Shown here piece by piece: positions 3-33,198 of a stretch of DNA of 64,000 bases (position 1 is its first letter; every line of letters starts with the position of its first letter). Made by a program: the position numbers and the translations under genes. Location of the stretch: the NCBI GenBank assembly GCA_028821605.1, contig JAPPFM010000005.1, positions 1-64,000 of the forward strand, read 5' to 3'. The notes beneath the pieces are model-generated. The model was not told where the DNA came from. It made no database searches and worked only from the letters and a program-made list of their open reading frames with translations. The stretch is from Candidatus Poribacteria bacterium (GTDB lineage: Bacteria > Poribacteria > WGA-4E > WGA-3G).

Positions 3-596
3 GGCGCGAAATGGTCTGACGACGGTTGGGTGAACGGTGCCGTTGATTTTGATGGTGGTGGTGGACACGTCGTTGTCGATGATACGTTTGAATTGACAAC
101 AACCGCAATTACAGTGATCGCCCGGATCAACGGCTGGAAAACGATAGATTGGTCGGGAATTGTCGTTGGTCGAAGTGATCCAGCATCGTGGTGGATGGGT
201 GTCGCTGCGAACAATACCCTAACTTATGTATGGAACAACAACTCCGCACTGACGTGGAACTGGCAGGGCGCGCCAGAAATCCCGGAAAATAAATGGGCGT
301 TGGTCGCGATAGCAATTGAACCTGACAAAGCAACGAGTTACATTTATCACAGAGATAGTGACAAGCTTGATTCTGAAGTAAATGATATTCCGCACATCGA
401 ACAGACAGTTAAAAATTTGAAGTTCGGATGGGATGAATGTTGTGGTGCCAGATACTTCAAAGGGTTAATTGACGAAGTGATGATCTATGACCGGACGTTG
501 AACGCCGATGACCTCAAAAGGCTGGCAGCTGTTGGGCTGCCTGTCGAGAGTAAAGGTAAACTCGCTATCACTTGGGCAGAACTTAAGAGAGATTAA
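3..596 (+). CDS. LamG-domain protein, 3' part (truncated by window start)
   Basis: The reading frame is open from base 3, so the 5' end lies outside the window; a GTG at 30 is only an internal codon. The visible ~197 residues form a concanavalin A-like jelly roll of the LamG/laminin G type: a GAVDFDGGG-type first strand, an ITVIARI strand, a W-rich middle, a YFKGLIDEVMIYDRTL strand near the end, and a short C-terminal tail containing KLAITWAELK. Such domains bind sugars or proteins on exported bacterial proteins; the ligand cannot be read from the sequence. The C-terminal tail closely matches that of the LamG protein at 43310-44068. The family call is confident, the function is not. Confidence 0.85.
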   Translation, partial: GAKWSDDGWVNGAVDFDGGGGHVVVDDTFELTTTAITVIARINGWKTIDWSGIVVGRSDPASWWMGVAANNTLTYVWNNNSALTWNWQGAPEIPENKWALVAIAIEPDKATSYIYHRDSDKLDSEVNDIPHIEQTVKNLKFGWDECCGARYFKGLIDEVMIYDRTLNADDLKRLAAVGLPVESKGKLAITWAELKRD

Positions 597-12531: not shown

Positions 12532-13683
12532 TTACACTGTCTCCACAGAGGGACCCAAGGCGGCCCTCAAGATGTTTATCGCAGCGTTTACGTCCCTATC
12601 GTGGTGTGAACCACATTCGGGGCATGTCCACTGCCTATCAGAGAGAGAAAGGTTATCGTTTTTATGTCCGCAATCCGAACACGGTTTCGTGGTCGCCGTC
12701 CACTGTCCAACTTGAAAGAACTCGCGCTTATGTTTTTGACACTTATACTTCAATATCTCAACAAACTGTCCGAAAGCAAGGTCGGAGACTTTACGTCCCC
12801 ACAAGCGTTTCATACCCTCAAGGTTCAGCGTCTCTATGGCAATCGTATCAAACCTTTTGCACAGGTCGGTAGCAACCTTGTAGTGCCAGTCCTTGCGTTG
12901 GTTGGCTATAGGTTTCCGATACAATCGCGCAAGTCGTCTGACACAACGCCAATAGTTGTTAGAACCTTTGACTTTACGCGAAAGGCTTTTGCTCAGTGTT
13001 CGGAGTTCTTTCAAGGCGTGTTTCAAAAATTGTGGCGATTGTTTCTTTTCGCCGGTGCTGAGTGTGAGATATGTCTCCATCCCGAAGTCTATCCCTACGC
13101 TCTCACCTGTAGCAGAATAGGGTTCGGTGGTAGAGGTGTCTGTAACCACGTAAAGCCAATAGGTTCCAACACGATCGCGAAGGATTTGGATATAGCAAAC
13201 TTTACCGTCCCAGTCGCGGTGGTGGTGGAAAGAGAACCAACGTTTGTTGAATTTCAAGGTTTGAGTGGATTCGTCCCACGCTTTGAAAGAGAGACGAACA
13301 CGCCCTTCTTCAAGAAGATACGCCGATTGGAACTTCGCAGAACGATAGCGGTCTTTACGTTTAAACTTTGGAAGTCCGCCAAGTCCGTCAAAGAAACGGT
13401 CGTAGGTGATGTGGATACGGATAATCACTTCGTCAAGCGTGTCGCGAGGAATCCACGCCCAATGTTGATGCGTCCTTTGGAGCAAGTTCGTCAAGTGTGG
13501 TTGCAGGCGGAAACGCCCCGCATATTTCCCGTATCTACGGTAATATCGCTGTTCCAACTTCAGAAAGTGGTTATGCACCTCCGCAAGGTCATCAAGCATA
13601 TTGCCGAGACGCACATTCTTGGGATGTTCGCGCAGTTGGAACTTATACGTTTTTCGGCTCTTTTTCTTTTTTCGTTTTTTCAT
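12532..13683 (-). CDS. tnpB: TnpB, RNA-guided nuclease of an IS200/IS605-type element (copy 1)
   Basis: A 383-aa protein with a very basic N-terminus (MKKRKKKKSRK). The RuvC-like nuclease residues are all present: Asp in VGIDFGMETYL, Glu in AIETLNLEGM and Asp in the HDRDVNAA motif near residues 361-367. A zinc ribbon with CSDC and CPEC lies between the last two. Length and motifs are normal for an active protein. No tnpA gene is next to it, so the element is solitary (IS1341-like) and could move only with help. It differs clearly from the second TnpB at 22037. Promoter and structured leader are at 13694-13814. Confidence 0.93.
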   Translation of the reverse strand: MKKRKKKKSRKTYKFQLREHPKNVRLGNMLDDLAEVHNHFLKLEQRYYRRYGKYAGRFRLQPHLTNLLQRTHQHWAWIPRDTLDEVIIRIHITYDRFFDGLGGLPKFKRKDRYRSAKFQSAYLLEEGRVRLSFKAWDESTQTLKFNKRWFSFHHHRDWDGKVCYIQILRDRVGTYWLYVVTDTSTTEPYSATGESVGIDFGMETYLTLSTGEKKQSPQFLKHALKELRTLSKSLSRKVKGSNNYWRCVRRLARLYRKPIANQRKDWHYKVATDLCKRFDTIAIETLNLEGMKRLWGRKVSDLAFGQFVEILKYKCQKHKREFFQVGQWTATTKPCSDCGHKNDNLSLSDRQWTCPECGSHHDRDVNAAINILRAALGPSVETV

Positions 13684-13693
13684 GGTCTATCTC

Positions 13694-13781
13694 GTATCTC
13701 GCTTTTATCCCCTTACGAATGGGAGGAAACCAGCACGCCACCAAGCGGTGACGCTCGTAATACTGGTTTCCTACGAGATAC
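13694..13781 (-). ncRNA. structured 5' leader of tnpB copy 1
   Basis: On the minus strand the expected transcript starts with GTATCTCG, which pairs with CGAGATAC just before the start codon (outer stem, 13774-13781 with 13694-13701). Nested inside are GGAAACCAG/CTGGTTTCC (13763-13771 with 13725-13733) and a 7-bp stem CGTCACC/GGTGGCG with loop GCTT (13736-13753). An AAGGGGAT motif sits between the inner and outer stems. The same architecture occurs before tnpB copy 2, with compensatory base changes. Confidence 0.7.
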
Positions 13782-13785
13782 ATAT

Positions 13786-13814
13786 AGTAAACCACAATTT
13801 ACTGAGAATGGCAA
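13786..13814 (-). promoter_or_regulatory. promoter of tnpB copy 1
   Basis: On the minus strand: TTGCCA (13809-13814), 17-bp spacer, TTTACT (13786-13791). It is weaker than the matching promoter of copy 2 but at the same distance from the structured leader. Confidence 0.5.
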
Positions 13815-21623: not shown

Positions 21624-21756
21624 TAGGACTTACGCAAAATCAGAGAATAGGTCTATCATGACGCAATCGGTGCGATTAGGGGATTTAGTCTGGGAATAGA
21701 CTAAATCCATTCCTTGTATTACATTCCGCACCTACCGGGGAAATGCGTAAGTTCTA
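21624..21756. repeat. MITE-like element, TAGGACTTACGCA family, copy 2
   Basis: 133 bp with 13-bp terminal inverted repeats, TAGGACTTACGCA (21624-21636) and TGCGTAAGTTCTA (21744-21756), 12 of 13 matching. The core has a perfect 11-bp hairpin GGATTTAGTCT/AGACTAAATCC (21681-21691 and 21698-21708). Confidence 0.7.
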
Positions 21757-21829
21757 CAATAACAACTTCGAGAAAAACTTTCAAGCACATTCAGAAATTT
21801 AACTACATTTTCACCAGATTAAACGAGCA

Positions 21830-21890
21830 GGAAACCTCGCCTTTTAAGGCGGGGAGGACTGCTCGCTCTCGTGTGTTAGACCGTAGCGTT
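21830..21890 (+). repeat. left-end block of tnpB element 2
   Basis: The hairpin CGCCTT/AAGGCG (21838-21851) within CCTCGCC...GGCGGGG, followed by CTCGTGTGTTAGACC, is shared with the mirrored block at 13850-13900. It is read as the conserved left end of the IS200/IS605-type element. Confidence 0.5.
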
Positions 21891-21905
21891 TTTGATAAAA
21901 AACAC

Positions 21906-21934
21906 TTGACTTTTTTGGGAAAATATGGTCTAAT
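21906..21934 (+). promoter_or_regulatory. promoter of tnpB copy 2
   Basis: TTGACT (21906-21911), 17-bp spacer, TCTAAT (21929-21934): five of six matches in each box. The predicted start near 21941 falls inside the first arm of the structured leader. Confidence 0.65.
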
Positions 21935-21937
21935 ATA

Positions 21938-22027
21938 CGTATCACGTCGGAAACCAGCATGACAAGCGTAGCCTCTCGGTTACGTGCTGGTTTCCTCCCA
22001 CTTGTCAGGGGATAAACGCGTGATACG
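21938..22027 (+). ncRNA. structured 5' leader of tnpB copy 2
   Basis: Three nested stems. The outer is CGTATCACG/CGTGATACG (21938-21946 with 22019-22027), the middle GGAAACCAGCA/TGCTGGTTTCC (21949-21959 with 21985-21995), and the inner CGTAGCC/GGTTACG with loop TCTC (21967-21973 with 21978-21984). AGGGGAT at 22007-22013 lies between the middle and outer stems; ATG follows 9 bases after the outer stem. The layout is the same as upstream of tnpB copy 1, with compensatory changes. Confidence 0.7.
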
Positions 22028-22036
22028 TGAACGTCC

Positions 22037-23308
22037 ATGAGATTAACCTTTAAGTATCCTGTGTATCCTACGCAAACACAGGAACAAACATTGTTAGGGT
22101 GGTTTGACCACTTGTGTGAACTTCAGAATTCTGCGCGCAATAATCGCAAGTTTGCGCACGAAGAAGAAGGTCGTTTTGTTTCGCGATATGACCAGGAACA
22201 ACTTTTGAAGGTTGCTCGTGAGAAATATGACGACTTTCGTGAAGTGCCTCAAGATTTTCAAGTATCCGTCCTCAAACGAGTTGATAAGGCGTTTGATGCG
22301 TTCCGTAAGCGGTGTCGCGAAGGAGCAGAGAAAAAAGGGTATCCTCGTTTCAAAACGCGTGTCCGTTCTCTAACATGGTGCTTGCGAAAGCAGAAACTCA
22401 AGACGGGTGAACGTGTTCGCCAAAATCCGATAATAGAAACCGATTTTAGACACAATCGCTTAAAAGTGCCAAAGTTGGGTGAAGTGAAAATCTATATGCA
22501 CCGCCCACTTCAAGGTGACCCCAAAGAGGTAACAATCGTCAAAAAAGCGTCGGGGTGGTATGCACATATTACCTGTGAATTCCCTAATACTCCGAAAGTT
22601 GAACCAACTGACGCTATTGCAGTTGATGTTGGCACGACACACTACCTGACGACTTCTGCAGGCGAAAAAGAGGACAATCCGCGCTGGTATCGTCAAGCAG
22701 AAGGGGTACTACGAAAACACTCCAAAGACTTCTCTCGAAAGAAAAAAGGTAGCCAGCGTTGGCAGAAACAACAACACAAACTCGCAATGCACCATGAGCG
22801 AACCGCAAACAAACGCAAAGATTTTATCGGTAAATTGGTTTTCAAACTGTTTCATCATCAGAAAAACAACGTCCTTATTACCGAAGACCTCAGCGTTTCT
22901 AACATGGTTCAGAACAAACACCTCAGTAAGAGCATTTCCGATGCGTCTTGGGCAACCTTCTTTCAGTGGTGTGGAAACATAGCCGAAAGAGACGGTTTCC
23001 ATTTCCACCAAGTTGACCCCAAGAACACCTCGCAAATCTGCTCCTGTTGTGGTATTAAATCGCCAAAGAAACTTGCGTTGGCGATCCGAACTTTTGAGTG
23101 TCAGTCTTGTGGCATGTCTTTAGACCGAGACCATAACGCTGCACTGAACATACTTTATAGGGCAGCTGCTGCCCTTCGTGGAGAGCGGTGGGTTACTACC
23201 CTCGACGAAGCGAGAAACAATCCGAATGAAGCGTTTGGCTCTAAAAACCCCAATCAGTTATCGCTGTTTGACGGTTTGACACAAGTCTCGCGCTTTAGCG
23301 CGGGGTAG
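22037..23308 (+). CDS. tnpB: TnpB, RNA-guided nuclease of an IS200/IS605-type element (copy 2)
   Basis: A 423-aa protein with the N-terminal MRLTFKYPVYPTQTQEQTL helix-turn-helix-type start. The RuvC residues are Asp in AVDVGTTHYL, Glu in LITEDLSVSNM and Asp in LDRDHNAALNI, with zinc-ribbon cysteines CSCC and CQSC between them. All key residues are kept, so it looks functional. No tnpA is nearby. The 3' end of the gene overlaps the element's right-end hairpin. In characterised members TnpB uses an RNA from the right end to cut the donor site and keep the element in the genome; here that role is inferred. Confidence 0.93.
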   Translation: MRLTFKYPVYPTQTQEQTLLGWFDHLCELQNSARNNRKFAHEEEGRFVSRYDQEQLLKVAREKYDDFREVPQDFQVSVLKRVDKAFDAFRKRCREGAEKKGYPRFKTRVRSLTWCLRKQKLKTGERVRQNPIIETDFRHNRLKVPKLGEVKIYMHRPLQGDPKEVTIVKKASGWYAHITCEFPNTPKVEPTDAIAVDVGTTHYLTTSAGEKEDNPRWYRQAEGVLRKHSKDFSRKKKGSQRWQKQQHKLAMHHERTANKRKDFIGKLVFKLFHHQKNNVLITEDLSVSNMVQNKHLSKSISDASWATFFQWCGNIAERDGFHFHQVDPKNTSQICSCCGIKSPKKLALAIRTFECQSCGMSLDRDHNAALNILYRAAAALRGERWVTTLDEARNNPNEAFGSKNPNQLSLFDGLTQVSRFSAG

Positions 23309-23313
23309 TTGAC
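23287..23313 (+). ncRNA. right-end hairpin / expected omega RNA 3' end of tnpB element 2
   Basis: The hairpin CGCGC-TTTA-GCGCG (23289-23302) lies within the last tnpB codons, and TTGAC (23309-23313) follows the stop directly. The first element ends in the same way (hairpin with TTTA loop, then TTGAC). The guide portion would be the flanking bases just after this point. Confidence 0.5.
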
Positions 23314-23378
23314 CAAATAATTGTGGTAAAATGAAAGAGGAACACATAAAAGCGTCCATAACATTTTAAGGAGGAAGG

Positions 23379-24283: not shown

Positions 24284-26908
24284 ATGCGACACCTATTGAC
24301 TTTTTGGATCTGTTTAATCCTAATAAGCGGTTATTGCCTATCAGTTTCTGCGCAGGAAGCAGCACAACCCGCAAAACCAGTAGCACAGGCAGCACCCGCA
24401 AAAAAGAAAAAAGAGTTTGAAGATTTTTCAAAAGTTACTGAAGATAGCAAAAGCTACCAAGGTTTTTTCAAACTATACGAGAAAAAAGAGAATCTCTATT
24501 GTGAAATACAACCCTCACAATTAGATAAACCTTTTCTGTGCATGATTAGTCTTTCACGCGGTTTGGCGAGAGGACGCCTTATTTCTGGGATGACGATGGA
24601 AGAGTGGCTGCTCGTCTGGCGGCGTGTCGGTGACAAGGTGCACCTCGTGCGAAAAAACGTGCGTTTTCGCGCTGATAAAGGGACACCGACCGCACAATCC
24701 GTTGACTACAGCTATAGCGATTCTGTGCTATTCTCTCTCAAGATTGAAAGTATACACCCCCAACGAGGGAGTCTATTGGTGAATATCTCGCCTGTCTTTA
24801 TGTCTGACCTACCACCTTTAGCAGGTAGTATTGGCGGAGGTGCTCGTTTTGACAAAACGCGTAGCACTTGGGGAACAATCAAGGCATTCCCAAAGAACGT
24901 TGAATTGAGAGTTGAAGCGGTGTACGCATCAAACAGCAATATAACAACAGTTCCTGACAGTCGTGGTATCCAGTTGACCTTGCACTATAGTCTCGCCGAA
25001 CTTCCATCAAACAGCTACCGCCCGCGACTCGCTGACGACCGCGTCGGGCATTTCATGACAACGGTCAAGGACTACTCGCTTCAAACCAGCGATGCACCGT
25101 ATATTCGTTACGTCAACCGGTGGCATTTGGAAAAAGCAGACAAAAAAGCGAAACTCTCACCGCCGATGGATCCCATTATCTTTTACATAGAAAAAACAGT
25201 CCCACATCGTTTCCGTCCGCACATTCGTCAAGGGATCCTGGAGTGGAACAAGGCGTTTGAAAAAGCAGGATTTGTTGACGCAATTGAAGCACGGATTCAA
25301 CAAGATTATGAGGATTGGGACCCGGAAGACGCACGGTATAACACGATCCGCTGGGTTGTTGATGCGGGTTTCGCTATCGGTCCGTCCCGCGTGAATCCAT
25401 TGACAGGTCAGATATTGGATGCCGATATCCTTATCAGTGACGGTTTCATCAGATCCTGGCAGCGGGAGTATTCAACGTACTTTGATGAACTTGATTATGA
25501 ACGGGACCACCCGATGGATCACTCTTCACGGTTCCATTGTCAGATGGCATCCGGCTTGGCACGCCAGATGGGATTCATGGCGAGTGTTCTACAAGCGCGG
25601 GGCGTGGTCGGTGAAGACGGTGAGGTGCCGGAAGCGTTTATCGGTCAAGCACTTAAAGCACTGACAATGCACGAAGTTGGACATACATTGGGACTGCGGC
25701 ATAACTTTAAAGCGAGTACGATACATTCGCTTGATGACTTGAACAAGAAAAGCGATGAAGCACTCCTCGGTTCCGTGATGGAGTATGACGCTGTGAATAT
25801 TGCCCCTGAAGGTAAAAAACAGGGCGATTACTATACAACAACAATTGGACCCTGGGATTACTGGGTGATCGAGTACGCTTATAAACCGATCAATGCGAGT
25901 AACCCTGAAGGTGAATTAAAGGAGTTGGGCGAGATCGCTTCCCGTGTCGCAACACCAGGATTAACGTATGGCACAGACGGCGATGCGTCCTCGTATCAAT
26001 ATAGGGATTTGGATCCGCTGGTCAATCGGTGGGACCTAGGTTCGGATCCGCTCGATTTTGCCAAACAACGTCGCGAGATTGTCGTTGAACTCTGGGACAA
26101 GATTGCTGACAAAGTTGCAAAAGAAGGGATGGGTTATCAGCGTGTCAGGCGCGCCTTCGGGTCACTGCTCGGTGAACACGGTTATTCCATGTACCTTGCG
26201 AGCCGTTATATCGGCGGGCAGTATCACCATCGCGATCATCGTGGCGATGAGAATGGACGTTTACCGTTCGTGCCTGTTCCAGCGGCAAAGCAACGCGAGG
26301 CACTTGAGTTCCTCAAAGAACATGCGCTCTCGGACAAAGCCTTCGATTTTCCTCCTGATTTACTCAACAGTCTCGCTGTCACACGCTGGAGCGACTGGGG
26401 CTCCGGGACCGGGGGGTCTACACGTTTGGATTATCCGGTGCATACTGTCATCCTGCGCAACCAGACCCGTATCTTGGGACGCTTGCTCTATCCGAACGTT
26501 CTCGCGCGGATTCAGGATACAGAGTTGAAGTTTCCTAAGGGTGAAGACGCGTTCACACTGCCAGAACTCTTCTCAGGTATTACGGATGCGGTTTGGGTAG
26601 AACTTGATAGGAATGTCGGAGAAAAGCAGTGGTCGAATACCGATGCATTCATCTCCAGTTTCCGTAGAGCACTGCAACGTGAACACCTGAAGCAACTCAT
26701 CAAACTGATACTGGATGCGGATAGTGGAACGCCTGAGGATGCGAGATCGCTTGCTCGGCATCATCTCGGACAAATCAACACTCGGATACAAGGCGTGCTT
26801 CAAAACGCTCAAGGGAGACTTGACGACTATAGCTTGGCACACCTCCAAGAGTCGCAAGTCCGAGTCGCGAAGGCGTTGGATGCCAGTTTCCAAGTCCAGA
26901 AGCGTTAA
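24284..26908 (+). CDS. secreted zinc metalloprotease, DUF4953/DUF5117-type (paralogue 1)
   Basis: An 874-aa protein with a signal peptide (LLTFWICLILISGYCLSVSAQ). It has a variable Ala/Pro/Lys linker, then the DUF5117-like N-terminal part (FSKVTEDSKSYQGFFKLYEKKENLYCEI). The metzincin-type zinc site HEVGHTLGLRHN starts at residue 463 and is followed by a SVMEY Met-turn-like motif near residue 502. It is therefore a gluzincin/metzincin-like peptidase working outside the cytoplasm. AAGGAG precedes ATG 24284. It is the first of three close paralogues in a row, all same strand and nearly the same length. Confidence 0.88.
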   Translation: MRHLLTFWICLILISGYCLSVSAQEAAQPAKPVAQAAPAKKKKEFEDFSKVTEDSKSYQGFFKLYEKKENLYCEIQPSQLDKPFLCMISLSRGLARGRLISGMTMEEWLLVWRRVGDKVHLVRKNVRFRADKGTPTAQSVDYSYSDSVLFSLKIESIHPQRGSLLVNISPVFMSDLPPLAGSIGGGARFDKTRSTWGTIKAFPKNVELRVEAVYASNSNITTVPDSRGIQLTLHYSLAELPSNSYRPRLADDRVGHFMTTVKDYSLQTSDAPYIRYVNRWHLEKADKKAKLSPPMDPIIFYIEKTVPHRFRPHIRQGILEWNKAFEKAGFVDAIEARIQQDYEDWDPEDARYNTIRWVVDAGFAIGPSRVNPLTGQILDADILISDGFIRSWQREYSTYFDELDYERDHPMDHSSRFHCQMASGLARQMGFMASVLQARGVVGEDGEVPEAFIGQALKALTMHEVGHTLGLRHNFKASTIHSLDDLNKKSDEALLGSVMEYDAVNIAPEGKKQGDYYTTTIGPWDYWVIEYAYKPINASNPEGELKELGEIASRVATPGLTYGTDGDASSYQYRDLDPLVNRWDLGSDPLDFAKQRREIVVELWDKIADKVAKEGMGYQRVRRAFGSLLGEHGYSMYLASRYIGGQYHHRDHRGDENGRLPFVPVPAAKQREALEFLKEHALSDKAFDFPPDLLNSLAVTRWSDWGSGTGGSTRLDYPVHTVILRNQTRILGRLLYPNVLARIQDTELKFPKGEDAFTLPELFSGITDAVWVELDRNVGEKQWSNTDAFISSFRRALQREHLKQLIKLILDADSGTPEDARSLARHHLGQINTRIQGVLQNAQGRLDDYSLAHLQESQVRVAKALDASFQVQKR

Positions 26909-27028: not shown

Positions 27029-29650
27029 TTGATGCGATGCCAATTAATTTTTTGGCTCTGTTTAACGCTAATAAGCAGTTATTGCCTTTCGGTCGCTGCT
27101 CAGGAAGCAGCACAACCCGCAAAACCCACAACACAGGAAACACCTAAAAAAACAAAAAAAGAGTTCCAAGATTTCGCAAAGGTAACTGAAGACAGCAAAA
27201 GCTACGAAGGCTTTTTCAAACTATACCAGAAGAAAGAGAACCTCTATTGCGAGATACAACCTGCACAACTGAACCAGCCTTTTTTATTTCTGATTACGAT
27301 TTCAGGCGGTATGGGGAACAACTTCCTCGCCGCAGGAGAGATCTGGGATCAGTGGCTGCTTGCCTGGCGACGTGTCGGCGACAATGTGCATCTTGTGCGA
27401 AAAAATACCCGTTTCCGCGCGGATAAAGGGACACCGACCGCACAAGCCGTTGCGTATGGTTATAGTGACTCTGTGCTGTTCTCTCTTAAGATTGAAAGTA
27501 TTCATCCACAACGGAAAAGCCTGTTGGTAAATATTTCACCGGTTTTCATATCCGATCTACCCCCCTTAGCACGCTATATTGGTGGTGGTTTCGACAGAAC
27601 GCGTAGCACTTGGGGAAAAATCAAGACGTTCCCAAAGAATGTCGAGTTGAAAGTCAAAGCCGTCTACACATCAACACGCTACATAGAGGCTGTCCCCGAC
27701 AGTCGTGGGATTCAGTTGACGCTGCATTACAGCCTCGCGAAACTCCCAGAAAATAACTATCGTCCTCGGTTGGCTGACGACCGGCTTGGGCACTTTATGA
27801 CAGCGATCAAAGACTATTCACTTCAAACCAGCGATGCCCCCTTCACCCGCTATGTCCAGCGATGGCATCTGGAGAAGGCAGACAAAAAAGCGAAACTCTC
27901 ACCCCCGAAAAAACCGATTATCTTTTACATCGAGAAAACGGTGCCACACCGCTACCGTCCCTACATCCGACAAGGGATTCTCGAATGGAACAAGGCGTTT
28001 GAAAAGGCAGGCTTTGTCGATGCGATTGAGGCACGCATTCAACAAGATTATGAAGATTGGGACCCCGAAGACGCACGCTATAATACGATCCGTTGGATTG
28101 TCGGTGCAACTTTTGGGTATGGTCCATCCCGCGTGAATCCACTAACAGGCGAGATACTGGATGCCGATATCCTTTTGGGTGACGGCTGGATCAGATACTG
28201 GCAGCAAGATTACGGGACTTTCTTCGATAAGCTGGCGCATGAACGTGATCATCCGATGGATCACACTTCACACTTTCGGTGTCAGATGTCATCCGGCTTG
28301 GCACATCAGATGAACCTCATGGCGAGTGTGTTGCAAGCACGTGGTTTGACAGATGAAGGCGGTGAACCATCAGAAGTTTATGTCAGGGAAGCAATGAAAT
28401 TATTGGTGATGCATGAAGTAGGACATACGTTAGGGTTACGTCACAACTTTAAAGCGAGTACAATACTCTCCCTTGAAGAACTGAACACGAAAAAAGACGA
28501 ACCCCTCTACGGTTCCGTCATGGAATACGAAGCCGTGAATATCGCTCCCGAAGGCGAAAAGCAAGGACATTTCTTTTCACCGACAGTCGGTCCTTGGGAT
28601 GACTGGGTGATCGAGTATGCCTATAAACCGATCGACGCAAGCAAACCTGAAGATGAATTGGAAGCGTTGGGTAAAATCGCTTCCCGTGTCGCAGCACCGG
28701 AACTCACTTACGGCACAGATGAAGATGTTTACGGCTATCAATACCGTAATCTGGATCCGCTGGTAAATCTTTGGGATCTGGGTGCCGACCCATTTGAGTT
28801 CGCCAAACAACGGCGCGAGATCATCGTTAAACTTTGGGAGAAAATTGCGGACAAGGTTATAAAAGAGGGGATGGGCTATCAACGGGTCCGGCGAGCCTTC
28901 GAGACCCTACTCTATGAACATGAGAGTGCGATGTATCTCGCAAGTCGCTATATCGGCGGGCAGTATCACCATCGCGATCACCGCGGCGATGAAAATGGAC
29001 GTTTACCCTTCGTGCCTGTTCCGGCGGAGAAACAACGCGAAGCACTCCAATTCCTGAAAGAACACGCTCTCTCAGACAGTGCTTTTGATTTCCCACCCGA
29101 CCTACTTAACAGTCTTGCCGTCACGCGTTGGAGTGATTGGGGGTCAAGTAGCGGTGGCTTCACACGTTTGGACTACCCCGTGCATCAGGTCATTCTGTGG
29201 AATCAAACCTTTATCTTGGAACGACTGCTTTATCCGAATGTTCTGGCGCGGATTCAGGACACAGAGTTGAAGTTTGCTAAGGGTGAGACTGCGTTCACAC
29301 TGCCCGAACTCTTTTCAGGCATCACGGATGCGGTCTGGGTAGAACTGGATCGGAATGTCGGCGAAAAACAATGGTCGAATACGGATGCGTTTATCTCCAG
29401 TTTCCGGCGCGGGCTGCAGCGGGAACATCTCAAGCAGCTTATCAAACTGGTGTTGGATGCCGACAGTGGCACCCCCGAAGATGCGCGATCCCTCGCACGC
29501 CTGCATCTCGAAGAAATCAATACGCAGATACAGCGTGTCCTTCAAAACGCTCAAGGGAGACTCGATGATTACAGTTTGGCACACCTCGAAGACTCGCAAG
29601 TTCGGGTTTCAAAGGCTCTGGATGCGAGTTTCCAAGTCCAGAAACGTTAG
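27029..29650 (+). CDS. secreted zinc metalloprotease, DUF4953/DUF5117-type (paralogue 2)
   Basis: An 873-aa protein with a signal peptide and an Ala/Lys/Pro linker like paralogue 1. The zinc motif HEVGHTLGLRHN starts at residue 462 and SVMEYEAVN follows. AAGGAGAAA precedes ATG 27029. Among the three copies it is the most divergent around residues 90-110 (GGMGNNFLAAGEIWDQWLL instead of a TMxEWLL segment), which may alter substrate preference. A dockerin-like scrap follows directly downstream. Confidence 0.88.
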   Translation: MMRCQLIFWLCLTLISSYCLSVAAQEAAQPAKPTTQETPKKTKKEFQDFAKVTEDSKSYEGFFKLYQKKENLYCEIQPAQLNQPFLFLITISGGMGNNFLAAGEIWDQWLLAWRRVGDNVHLVRKNTRFRADKGTPTAQAVAYGYSDSVLFSLKIESIHPQRKSLLVNISPVFISDLPPLARYIGGGFDRTRSTWGKIKTFPKNVELKVKAVYTSTRYIEAVPDSRGIQLTLHYSLAKLPENNYRPRLADDRLGHFMTAIKDYSLQTSDAPFTRYVQRWHLEKADKKAKLSPPKKPIIFYIEKTVPHRYRPYIRQGILEWNKAFEKAGFVDAIEARIQQDYEDWDPEDARYNTIRWIVGATFGYGPSRVNPLTGEILDADILLGDGWIRYWQQDYGTFFDKLAHERDHPMDHTSHFRCQMSSGLAHQMNLMASVLQARGLTDEGGEPSEVYVREAMKLLVMHEVGHTLGLRHNFKASTILSLEELNTKKDEPLYGSVMEYEAVNIAPEGEKQGHFFSPTVGPWDDWVIEYAYKPIDASKPEDELEALGKIASRVAAPELTYGTDEDVYGYQYRNLDPLVNLWDLGADPFEFAKQRREIIVKLWEKIADKVIKEGMGYQRVRRAFETLLYEHESAMYLASRYIGGQYHHRDHRGDENGRLPFVPVPAEKQREALQFLKEHALSDSAFDFPPDLLNSLAVTRWSDWGSSSGGFTRLDYPVHQVILWNQTFILERLLYPNVLARIQDTELKFAKGETAFTLPELFSGITDAVWVELDRNVGEKQWSNTDAFISSFRRGLQREHLKQLIKLVLDADSGTPEDARSLARLHLEEINTQIQRVLQNAQGRLDDYSLAHLEDSQVRVSKALDASFQVQKR

Positions 29651-30582: not shown

Positions 30583-33198
30583 ATGCAACGCCAATTGACT
30601 TTTTGGCTCTGTTTAATTCTAATCAGCAGTTGTTCCCTGCCGATATTCGCACAGGAATCTGCAAAACCCGCAACACAAGAAGCACCCGAGAAACCGAAAA
30701 AAGAATTTCCAGACTTCTCGAAAGTAACTGAAGACAGCAAAAGCTACCAAGGTTTTTTCAAACTATACCAGAAAAAAGAGAACCTTTATTGTGAGATACA
30801 ACCCTCACAATTGAACCAGCCCTTTTTATGCATGATTAGTCTTGCGCGCGGCTTAGGGAGAGGAACCCTTATCTCTGGGATGACGATGGATGAGTGGCTG
30901 CTCGTCTGGCGACGCGTTGGCGATAACGTGCATCTCATGCGAAAAAATGTGCGTTTCCGCGCTGATAAAGGGACACCGACCGCACAAGCCGTTGAGTATG
31001 GTTATAGTGACTCTGTACTATTTTCTCTCAAGATTGAAAGTATCCATCCACAACGGAAAAGCCTTTTGGTAAACATCTCTCCGGTTTTTGTATCCGATCT
31101 ACCACCTTTGGCACGTAGGATCGCTCCAGATGCGCGCTTCGACAGAACGCGCAGCACTTGGGGAAAAATCAAGACGTTTCCAAAGAATGTGGAGTTGAAA
31201 GTTAACGCGGCGTACACCTCGGCGAGTTATATAGAAACTGTGCCCGACAGTCGTGGGATTCAGTTGACCCTACACTATAGCCTTGCGAAACTTCCATCGA
31301 ACAACTACCGTCCTCGGTTGGCTGATGACCGACTTGGACACTTTATGACAACGGTCAAAGACTACTCGCTTCAAACCAGCGATGCGCCGTATATTCGTTA
31401 CGTTAATCGCTGGCATTTGGAGAAAGCCGACAAAAAAGCGAAACTTTCACCGCCAATGGATCCAATCATCTTTTACATTGAGAAAACGGTGCCGCATCGG
31501 TTTCGTCCGTACATTCGCCAAGGAATCCTGGAATGGAACAAGGCATTTGAAAAGGCAGGCTTTGTCGATGCAATTGAGGCACGCATTCAACAAGATTACG
31601 AGGATTGGGACCCCGAGGATGCCCGGTATAACACGATCCGCTGGGTTGTTGACGCAGGCTTCGCGATTGGTCCGTCCCGCGTGAACCCATTGACAGGACA
31701 GATACTGGATGCCGATATTCTTATCAGCGACGTTTTTATCAGAAGTTGGCAGCGACAGTATAAAACGTACTTTGATGAGTTAGCGCATGAGCGCGATCAT
31801 CCGATGGATCACACCTCACACTTTCAGTGTCAGCTGGCATCCGGGTTGACACGTCAGATGGGGTTCATGGCGAGCGTCTTGCAGGCACGCGGTTTGACGG
31901 ACGAAGACGGTGAATTACCAGAAGAATTTATCGGCGAGGCATTGAAAACACTGACGATGCATGAGGTCGGTCACACATTGGGATTACGCCACAATTTTAA
32001 ATCGAGTACGATATACTCTCTTGACGATCTGAACGACAAAACAGACGAGGCAACCGTCGGTTCCGTCATGGATTACTGGGGTGTGAATGTTGCCCCCGAA
32101 GGTAAAGAACAGGGACACTACTATACGCCGACGGTTGGTCCTTGGGATTATTGGGTCGTCGAGTATGCCTATAAACCGATTGCTGCAAGTAACCCTGAAG
32201 GTGAACTGGAAGCATTGGGCAAAATCGCGTCCCGTGTCGCAACACCGGAACTTACCTACGGAACAGATGGCGACGTTTACAGCTATCAATACCGTAATCT
32301 GGATCCGCTGGTAAATGTTTGGGATCTGGGTGCCGACCCGCTTGAGTTTGCCAAACAACGGCGAGAAATTGTCGTCAACCTTTGGGACAAAATTGCAGAT
32401 AAGGTCACAAAAGAGGGGATGGGCTATCAACGGGTCCGCCAGGCATTTGGGAGATTGCTTGGTGAACATGCGAATGCGATGTACTTTGCAAGCCGATATA
32501 TCGGTGGGCAGTATCACCATCGCGACCATCGCGGTGATGAAAATGGACGTTTACCTTTTGTGCCGGTTCCCGCAGCGAAACAACGCGAGGCACTTGAGTT
32601 CCTCAAAGAACACGCCCTCTCGGACAAAGCCTTTGATTTCTCGGCTGACCTACTCAACAGTCTTGCTGTCACGCGTTGGAGTGATTGGGGATCAAGTAGT
32701 GGGAGTTCTACGCGTTTGGATTATCCGGTGCATCAGATCATTCTGAACAATCAAACCTTTATCTTGGGACGTCTGCTTTATCCGAATGTTCTGGCGCGGA
32801 TTCAGGACACAGAGTTGAAGTTTCCTAAGGGTGAAGATGTGTTCACACTGCCAGAACTCTTTTCAGGGATCACGGACGCGGTTTGGGTAGAACTCGATCG
32901 AAATGTCGGCGAAAAGCAGTGGTCGAATACCGATGCGTTTATCTCCAGTTTCCGGCGCGGTTTGCAGCGGGAACACCTCAAGCAGCTTATCAAACTGGTG
33001 CTGGAGGCTGATAGTGGCACCCCCGAAGATGCGCGATCCCTCGCACGCCTGCATCTCGAGGAAATCAACACGCAGATACAACGTGTTCTTCAAAACGCTC
33101 AAGGCAGACTTGATGATTATAGCTTGGCGCACCTCAAAGAGTCGCAAGTCCGAGTCGCGAAGGCTCTGGATGCGAGTTTCCAAGTTCAGAAACGTTAA
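30583..33198 (+). CDS. secreted zinc metalloprotease, DUF4953/DUF5117-type (paralogue 3)
   Basis: An 871-aa protein with a signal peptide (LTFWLCLILISSCSLPIFAQ) and the same body as paralogues 1 and 2. The zinc motif HEVGHTLGLRHN starts at residue 460. The Met-turn-like stretch reads SVMDYWGVN instead of SVMEYxAVN. AAGGAGAAA precedes ATG 30583. Its 3' flank (TTAGGACTT, then GGCGGGG) resembles that of paralogue 1, so the duplication covered downstream DNA as well. Confidence 0.88.
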   Translation: MQRQLTFWLCLILISSCSLPIFAQESAKPATQEAPEKPKKEFPDFSKVTEDSKSYQGFFKLYQKKENLYCEIQPSQLNQPFLCMISLARGLGRGTLISGMTMDEWLLVWRRVGDNVHLMRKNVRFRADKGTPTAQAVEYGYSDSVLFSLKIESIHPQRKSLLVNISPVFVSDLPPLARRIAPDARFDRTRSTWGKIKTFPKNVELKVNAAYTSASYIETVPDSRGIQLTLHYSLAKLPSNNYRPRLADDRLGHFMTTVKDYSLQTSDAPYIRYVNRWHLEKADKKAKLSPPMDPIIFYIEKTVPHRFRPYIRQGILEWNKAFEKAGFVDAIEARIQQDYEDWDPEDARYNTIRWVVDAGFAIGPSRVNPLTGQILDADILISDVFIRSWQRQYKTYFDELAHERDHPMDHTSHFQCQLASGLTRQMGFMASVLQARGLTDEDGELPEEFIGEALKTLTMHEVGHTLGLRHNFKSSTIYSLDDLNDKTDEATVGSVMDYWGVNVAPEGKEQGHYYTPTVGPWDYWVVEYAYKPIAASNPEGELEALGKIASRVATPELTYGTDGDVYSYQYRNLDPLVNVWDLGADPLEFAKQRREIVVNLWDKIADKVTKEGMGYQRVRQAFGRLLGEHANAMYFASRYIGGQYHHRDHRGDENGRLPFVPVPAAKQREALEFLKEHALSDKAFDFSADLLNSLAVTRWSDWGSSSGSSTRLDYPVHQIILNNQTFILGRLLYPNVLARIQDTELKFPKGEDVFTLPELFSGITDAVWVELDRNVGEKQWSNTDAFISSFRRGLQREHLKQLIKLVLEADSGTPEDARSLARLHLEEINTQIQRVLQNAQGRLDDYSLAHLKESQVRVAKALDASFQVQKR

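Follow-up and report, generated by a model that had tools for sequence, protein, structure and literature searches.

A pseudoknotted, covarying 5' leader of poribacterial tnpB genes with a duplicated outer-stem strand that suggests a translational switch

TnpB is the ancestor of Cas12 and has been studied as a compact editor. In the genome of a member of the Candidatus Poribacteria, a group of sponge-associated bacteria, two tnpB genes are each preceded by a similar sequence that can form several stems, which raises the question of what such a sequence might do between the promoter and the start codon of a gene of this kind. The window examined here is the whole stretch of 64,000 nucleotides that was analysed (contig JAPPFM010000005.1 of assembly GCA_028821605.1, positions 1 to 64,000), for which a first-pass annotation had suggested three roles for the stems: control of TnpB expression, a second RNA, or a DNA hairpin at the left end of the element that is read by a transposase. 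Expression control proved to be the best supported of the three, given the fixed spacing of the leader to both promoter and start codon and the presence of a duplicated strand at the start site, and the leader is best read, from comparative sequence, as a new class of 5'-UTR RNA switch that would gate TnpB translation.

The gene that follows the better studied leader, tnpB copy 2 (22037-23308, plus strand), encodes a protein of 423 amino acids (NCBIfam guided_TnpB, 1.5e-80) with the Pfam domains OrfB_IS605 and Cas12f1-like_TNB, and with DED-like RuvC motifs that look intact by eye. The second gene, tnpB copy 1 (12532-13683, minus strand), encodes 383 amino acids (IS200_TnpB, 6.3e-66; guided_TnpB, 3.8e-65). 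The two proteins are 27% identical, and the two leaders are 78% identical in DNA. Element ends were mapped as the positions at which similarity stops between copies that are 99-100% identical and lie at different sites (L117/L118, L125/L126 and L134/L135), and these ends carry CTTTAG-loop hairpins of their own, the left one outside the promoter and the right one past tnpB. Homologues of an IPL-like inverted repeat in the window (21824-21865, plus strand; loop CTTTTAAGG), of the kind found in IS200/IS605-type elements, occur at the mapped left ends of the near-identical copies, and in the window this hairpin lies outside the tnpB promoter and apart from the leader. On the other side, a stretch at 23287-23313 (plus strand) with a hairpin at 23287-23304 (CTCGCGC TTTA GCGCGGG) resembles the mapped right ends of related elements; it is probably the 3' part of the omegaRNA, and the element likely terminates there at TTGAC. 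The protein domains and the terminal hairpins place the leader in an IS200/IS605-type tnpB element. Y1 transposases are encoded at other sites of the genome, so that elements carrying tnpB only may move in trans. Directly upstream of the tnpB element lies a MITE-like inverted repeat (21629-21757; ACTTACGCA ... TGCGTAAGT), and three large open reading frames of about 870 codons are found in series at 24284-26908, 27029-29650 and 30583-33198, the first two sharing long stretches of 76-80% DNA identity and the third being equal in size.

The leader of tnpB copy 2 occupies 21937-22036, and that of tnpB copy 1 occupies 13688-13783 on the minus strand. As the first-pass annotation had stated, a promoter with 17-nucleotide spacing lies upstream of tnpB copy 2 (21906-21934, plus strand; -35 box TTGACT at 21906-21911, -10 box TCTAAT at 21929-21934), and the same stems precede tnpB copy 1. 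The promoter of tnpB copy 1 reads TTGCCA, 17 nucleotides, TTTACT (13786-13814, minus strand). The three stems that had been described as nested are indeed present (termed here P1, P2 and P3); they do not form a simple nested set, because they are joined by a 7-base-pair pseudoknot, which had been overlooked along with a short additional helix (P4) and a tandem duplication of the 3' strand of P1. In the leader of tnpB copy 2, all on the plus strand, the outer stem P1 pairs 21937-21946 with 22019-22028 and ends 8 nucleotides before the gene start at 22037. P2, an inverted repeat that displays covariation, pairs 21949-21959 with 21985-21995. Between the 5' strands of P2 and P3 lies pseudoknot strand a (TGACAAG, 21960-21966), which forms 7 base pairs with strand b (CTTGTCA, 22001-22007), located just 3' of P2; this inverted repeat likewise covaries. 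P3 is a covarying hairpin at 21967-21984 (CGTAGCC TCTC GGTTACG; stem 21967-21973/21978-21984), and P4 (CCC/GGG, 21997-21999/22008-22010) is a more tentative helix that brackets pseudoknot strand b.

The 3' strand of P1 is duplicated in tandem with a 7-nucleotide period, and the 5' strand, P1a (TATCACG, 21940-21946, the helix extending from 21937), is able to pair with either copy. Strand copy 1 (CGTGATA, 22019-22025) is its partner in P1, and strand copy 2 (CGTGAAC, 22026-22032), at the ribosome-binding site, is an alternative partner that has decayed to 5-6 base pairs. In the leader of tnpB copy 1 (minus strand), P1a lies at 13774-13780 (TATCTCG), P2 at 13761-13771/13725-13735, the pseudoknot at 13754-13760/13713-13719 and P3 at 13736-13753, and both 3' copies (13695-13701 and 13688-13694) read CGAGATA, matching TATCTCG. 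The compensatory differences that had been pointed out between the two leaders, from CAC/GTG to CTC/GAG in P1 and from A-T to C-G in P3, were confirmed.

The distribution of this architecture was determined first within the genome and then across its phylum. A descriptor search for the whole architecture upstream of the genome's tnpB matches, with dinucleotide shuffles as the control, recovered it at 21 of 29 genes and in none of 87 shuffles; together with the covariation in the large alignment, this argues that the architecture is not a product of chance. A covariance model found 22 leaders in the source genome. Of 85 genomes from the phylum it matched 47, among them all those examined from the same genus, with up to 42 copies per genome. 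Among 132 distinct leaders, tnpB lies directly downstream in 121, and the remaining 11 are mostly found at contig ends or ahead of decayed remnants. Leaders without an intact downstream tnpB that represent decayed element remnants are seen at L068, L077, L078 and L133 (1895-1978). When 84,980 species genomes were scanned for the DNA pattern, 88 stretches came back, almost all of them poribacterial; the three from other organisms (L164, L180, L205) were dismissed as chance, and the covariance model matches none of them. The same fold and duplication, built from unrelated sequence, occur in other poribacterial genera and families that the model does not match (G019, G023, G028, G040, G047). A second leader type, with a P2 resembling GCGGTGG and the start codon in or next to strand copy 2, was observed at L041, L045, L047, L048, L262, L372, L381 and L383, and is probably a distinct subfamily that needs a model of its own. 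In one genus (G028), a third short P1a-matching stretch, GGTGAC, lies upstream of the two copies (L356, L357, L358, L360, L361 and L363).

Within the phylum, the leader is absent where tnpB appears by eye to follow tnpA in an operon, and it is also absent from L053, whose tnpB lies, by eye, behind a serine recombinase (IS607-type) and which serves as a natural negative control. Among upstream regions of tnpB genes from two other phyla, one of 53 testable genes scored, with a GC-rich, low-scoring and chance-like fold. One genome from another phylum (G261) displayed more than 100 tnpB candidates at first look.

Covariation was already evident in the first 12 leaders, in which both members of 16 of 40 pairs had changed and 96% of cells were paired, as against 33-46% after the 3' partners were slid. 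All column pairs were subsequently scored across 106 distinct leaders with an APC-corrected G statistic, in our own implementation of the R-scape idea, against two phylogenetic nulls of 100 simulations each; the alignment is limited to leaders that our parser could read (113 of 132). The top twelve pairs exceeded every simulation under both nulls, and comprise four pairs of the pseudoknot (K1-K4), P1a with strand copy 1, P1a with strand copy 2, the two strand copies with each other, three pairs of P2 and two of P3. The 7-base-pair pseudoknot is the most strongly covarying part of the leader. At the most variable position of P1, the pairing with strand copy 2 is found in all four Watson-Crick combinations (CG 31, AT 30, GC 28, TA 12); this base has changed approximately 25 times on the TnpB tree, and the bases of P1a, copy 1 and copy 2 agree there in 100 of 106 leaders. 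GU pairs outnumber AC mismatches over all helices (117 versus 35) and in P3 (71 versus 0), which indicates that it is the sense strand that folds. The three pairs of P4 are formed in 102-103 of the 106 type A leaders and are nearly invariant, with no covariation support in that alignment; support for P4 comes from the type B leaders, in which it reads ACCG/CGGT. The original description of a structured, covarying RNA leader was strongly supported, the covariation being upheld in this larger alignment.

The position of the structure relative to the gene is similarly constrained. The end of the -10 box lies 5 nucleotides from P1 in 93 and 6 nucleotides in 9 of the 106 leaders, and both promoter hexamers have at most two mismatches in 100 of them. 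Given a promoter at so fixed a distance, the first transcribed base should be that of P1a or an immediate neighbour, and the consensus promoter 5-6 nucleotides before P1 in 102 of 106 leaders makes it unlikely that the structure falls outside the transcript. At the other end, the first in-frame start codon lies exactly 7 nucleotides past the end of the model in 100 of 121 leaders, and 5-8 nucleotides past it in 110. A covarying structure is thereby found between the promoter and the start codon of a single gene family, as would be expected of a structured, cis-regulatory 5' leader. The fold, the pseudoknot, both pairings of P1, the spacing to promoter and start codon, and the association with tnpB are all established by comparison of sequences.

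The element of this architecture that bears most directly on function is the second partner of P1a. Nearly all leaders carry exactly two copies of the P1 3' strand; among the aligned type A leaders none with three was seen, and one has a single copy. Strand copy 2 coincides with the ribosome-binding site in type A, and in type B and more distant leaders it contains or overlaps the start codon, the copies not always being adjacent. In type B leaders of the source genome (L041, L045, L048) and in leaders from other genera (L381, L383), unrelated sequence splits the two copies, and both match P1a. At L041, for example, P1a is TTACATCGTG and copy 1 is CACGATGTAA, followed by AGGAAA and then by copy 2, CACGATGTA, the ATG of which is the start of the gene. 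An explanation in which P1 merely extends into copy 2 was rejected, the outermost extension pair being kept in only 53 of 106 leaders. Copy 2 is imperfect in a minority of leaders (CGTGAAA or CGTGAAC), including that of tnpB copy 2 in the window (5-6 base pairs). Among 35 leaders of sequence types outside the model, 29 have at least two partners for P1a, compared with 7% of controls in which P1a was swapped and 14% of those in which the tails were shuffled. A single 6-base-pair partner for a foreign P1a arises by chance in 34% of cases. Because the construction supplies one partner from the outset, 83% is more fairly set against about one third, and individual short second copies in the distant types are weak evidence alone.

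Taken as a whole, the leader is probably a 5'-terminal mRNA element that works as a bistable switch of tnpB translation, and its two mutually exclusive, conserved pairings, one of them at the initiation site, are what the comparison of leaders offers for such a mechanism. P2, P3, the pseudoknot and probably P4 would form a pseudoknotted domain that is closed by P1. Pairing of P1a with copy 1 would leave the start region freer, and would correspond to an ON state; pairing with copy 2, which excludes the first, would cover the ribosome-binding site in type A and the start codon in type B, block initiation, and correspond to an OFF state. Energy calculations, in which the pseudoknot strands were held unpaired, give model values that illustrate plausibility only: the copy-1 pairing is predicted to be favoured by a mean of 3.8 kcal/mol, with 44 of 106 leaders within 3 kcal/mol. 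In type A, the predicted mean accessibility of the stretch that runs from copy 2 up to the start codon differs only modestly, at 0.54 in the copy-1 register versus 0.40 in the copy-2 register, and that of the type B AUG is 0.09-0.45, or partly free, in the copy-1 register and 0.00, or fully buried, in the copy-2 register. These predictions, like the imperfect second copies and the lack of a strong Shine-Dalgarno sequence in type A leaders, count against the switch. That the switch acts on translation is our inference from this arrangement.

Some factor, perhaps TnpB or its ribonucleoprotein, would bias the balance between the pairings, and the transcript would be diverted from translation to the supply of omegaRNA. 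TnpB derives its guide RNA from the mRNA that encodes it (PMC10278001), so that a single transcript has to serve both translation and the supply of guides, in competition with each other, and autogenous control is attractive as a hypothesis for that reason. It is possible, and we put this forward tentatively, that the pseudoknotted domain senses TnpB, either free or as a ribonucleoprotein, and shifts P1 from copy 1 to copy 2, turning translation off and leaving the transcript as an omegaRNA precursor. Leader identity is 0.74, 0.73 and 0.77 for pairs with TnpB identity below 35%, of 35-60% and above 60%, respectively (Mantel r 0.18); the leader hardly tracks the protein. This speaks against a TnpB that recognises its leader tightly within each clade, and still leaves room for recognition of a shape that leaders have in common. 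Between the sequence of the pseudoknot or P1 and that of the 3' omegaRNA or promoter region, coupling displayed no consistent excess over swapped controls.

The same near-independence from TnpB identity would suit a sensed entity that is common to all TnpBs, and hence a small-molecule riboswitch for a host metabolite. Such a riboswitch is unlikely, in that Rfam riboswitches produce no match in the window at gathering score or in the element region up to E 10, little unpaired sequence is common to the leader types (GGGGATAAA of type A is missing from the others), and the downstream gene is solely tnpB. Somewhat less improbable is a constitutive 5'-end element, in which a stable pseudoknot guards the tnpB/omegaRNA transcript against RNases, or holds translation at a uniformly low level, with no switching; the fold is very stable and the inferred transcription start falls at or close to the beginning of P1, but this explanation does not account for the fact that P1a has kept, through some 25 base changes, a further partner that lies at the start codon or spans it. 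The duplication itself might instead be passive, with slippage homogenising a tandem 7-nucleotide repeat in which only the pairing of P1a with copy 1 is functional. The direct adjacency and 7-nucleotide periodicity of the type A copies are in keeping with slippage, which nonetheless appears quite improbable, given that the number of copies so rarely departs from two and that at L041, L045, L048, L381 and L383 each copy fits P1a despite the unrelated sequence between them.

The two remaining explanations would remove the leader from the control of its own mRNA. A structured 5' small RNA is reported to arise from IS200 tnpA transcripts in Salmonella (PMC12594629), and a trans-acting RNA, be it a second guide-like RNA or a small RNA, might likewise be cut from the leader. 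No positive evidence for it emerged: no guide position reaches flanking DNA, matches to the pseudoknot and P1 sequences are not clearly in excess in the rest of the element, and P1a is tied to the start codon, so that we regard it as distinctly improbable. Least probable, and very remote in our estimation, is a DNA hairpin at the transposon's left end that is recognised by a Y1 transposase. The leader does lie close to the left end, Y1 transposases are available elsewhere in the genome, and folding of the sense strand is compatible with single-stranded DNA as well as RNA; the mapped ends, however, possess separate IPL and IPR hairpins of which the left one is outside the promoter, and the leader is locked in position to promoter and start codon instead.

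Rfam returned no match at gathering threshold over the whole window, and only unrelated sub-threshold matches to E 10 within 21780-23360. Like the omegaRNA of TnpB, the leader is a structured RNA of the same element; the omegaRNA is located at the 3' end and carries a guide, whereas the leader is located at the 5' end with no guide position, in an element that keeps its own 3' hairpin. Identity with the omegaRNA was rejected on the leader's position between promoter and ATG and on the separately mapped right end. The HEARO or IscB omegaRNA is likewise structured and immediately precedes the gene of an OMEGA nuclease; it is a guide RNA with the guide at its 5' end, whereas in the leader a promoter abuts the structure, and an IscB-type 5' guide RNA was rejected on geometry, position and the lack of an Rfam match. 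HDV-like ribozymes and other pseudoknotted RNAs, such as preQ1-II, share with the leader a hairpin inserted in a pseudoknot loop. The leader differs from them in a P2 of 8, 9 or 11 base pairs, in a P3 tetraloop without room for P1.1, and again in the absence of an Rfam match; an HDV-like ribozyme, with its fixed 7-base-pair P1, P1.1 pseudoknot and catalytic C, does not fit a leader whose equivalent helix spans 8-11 base pairs and whose P3 ends in a tetraloop.

Post-transcriptional repression of an insertion-sequence protein through its 5' UTR has precedents in the IS200 tnpA leader and in IS10, which are directed at a transposase, while the poribacterial leader would be directed at TnpB. We know of no pseudoknot or duplicated P1 strand in those leaders. 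Nety et al. noted that TnpA is controlled in this way, through the structure of its mRNA and through antisense RNA (PMC10278001), and Hfq blocks the ribosome-binding site of IS10 (PMC5006887). A cis-inhibitory region in the AmaTnpB mRNA (nucleotides 825-875) lies within the coding sequence and inhibits DNA cleavage (PMC10278001); this too is a TnpB mRNA that acts in cis, and it differs from the role in start-site access proposed for the leader. Searches of the open-access literature for TnpB with riboswitch, leader or autoregulation found no description of such a leader, and found no paper treating Poribacteria together with TnpB; control of TnpB by a leader of this kind seems to be new.

This large leader family, with 22 copies in this genome and up to 42 in a single genome, provides a concrete and testable object for the study of how an element limits the expression of its TnpB. 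It further offers a clean case in which three-way covariation is enough to reveal both states of a putative switch, and engineering may find in it an expression platform. If the leader does sense TnpB, it would be the first switch dedicated to the expression of an OMEGA nuclease.
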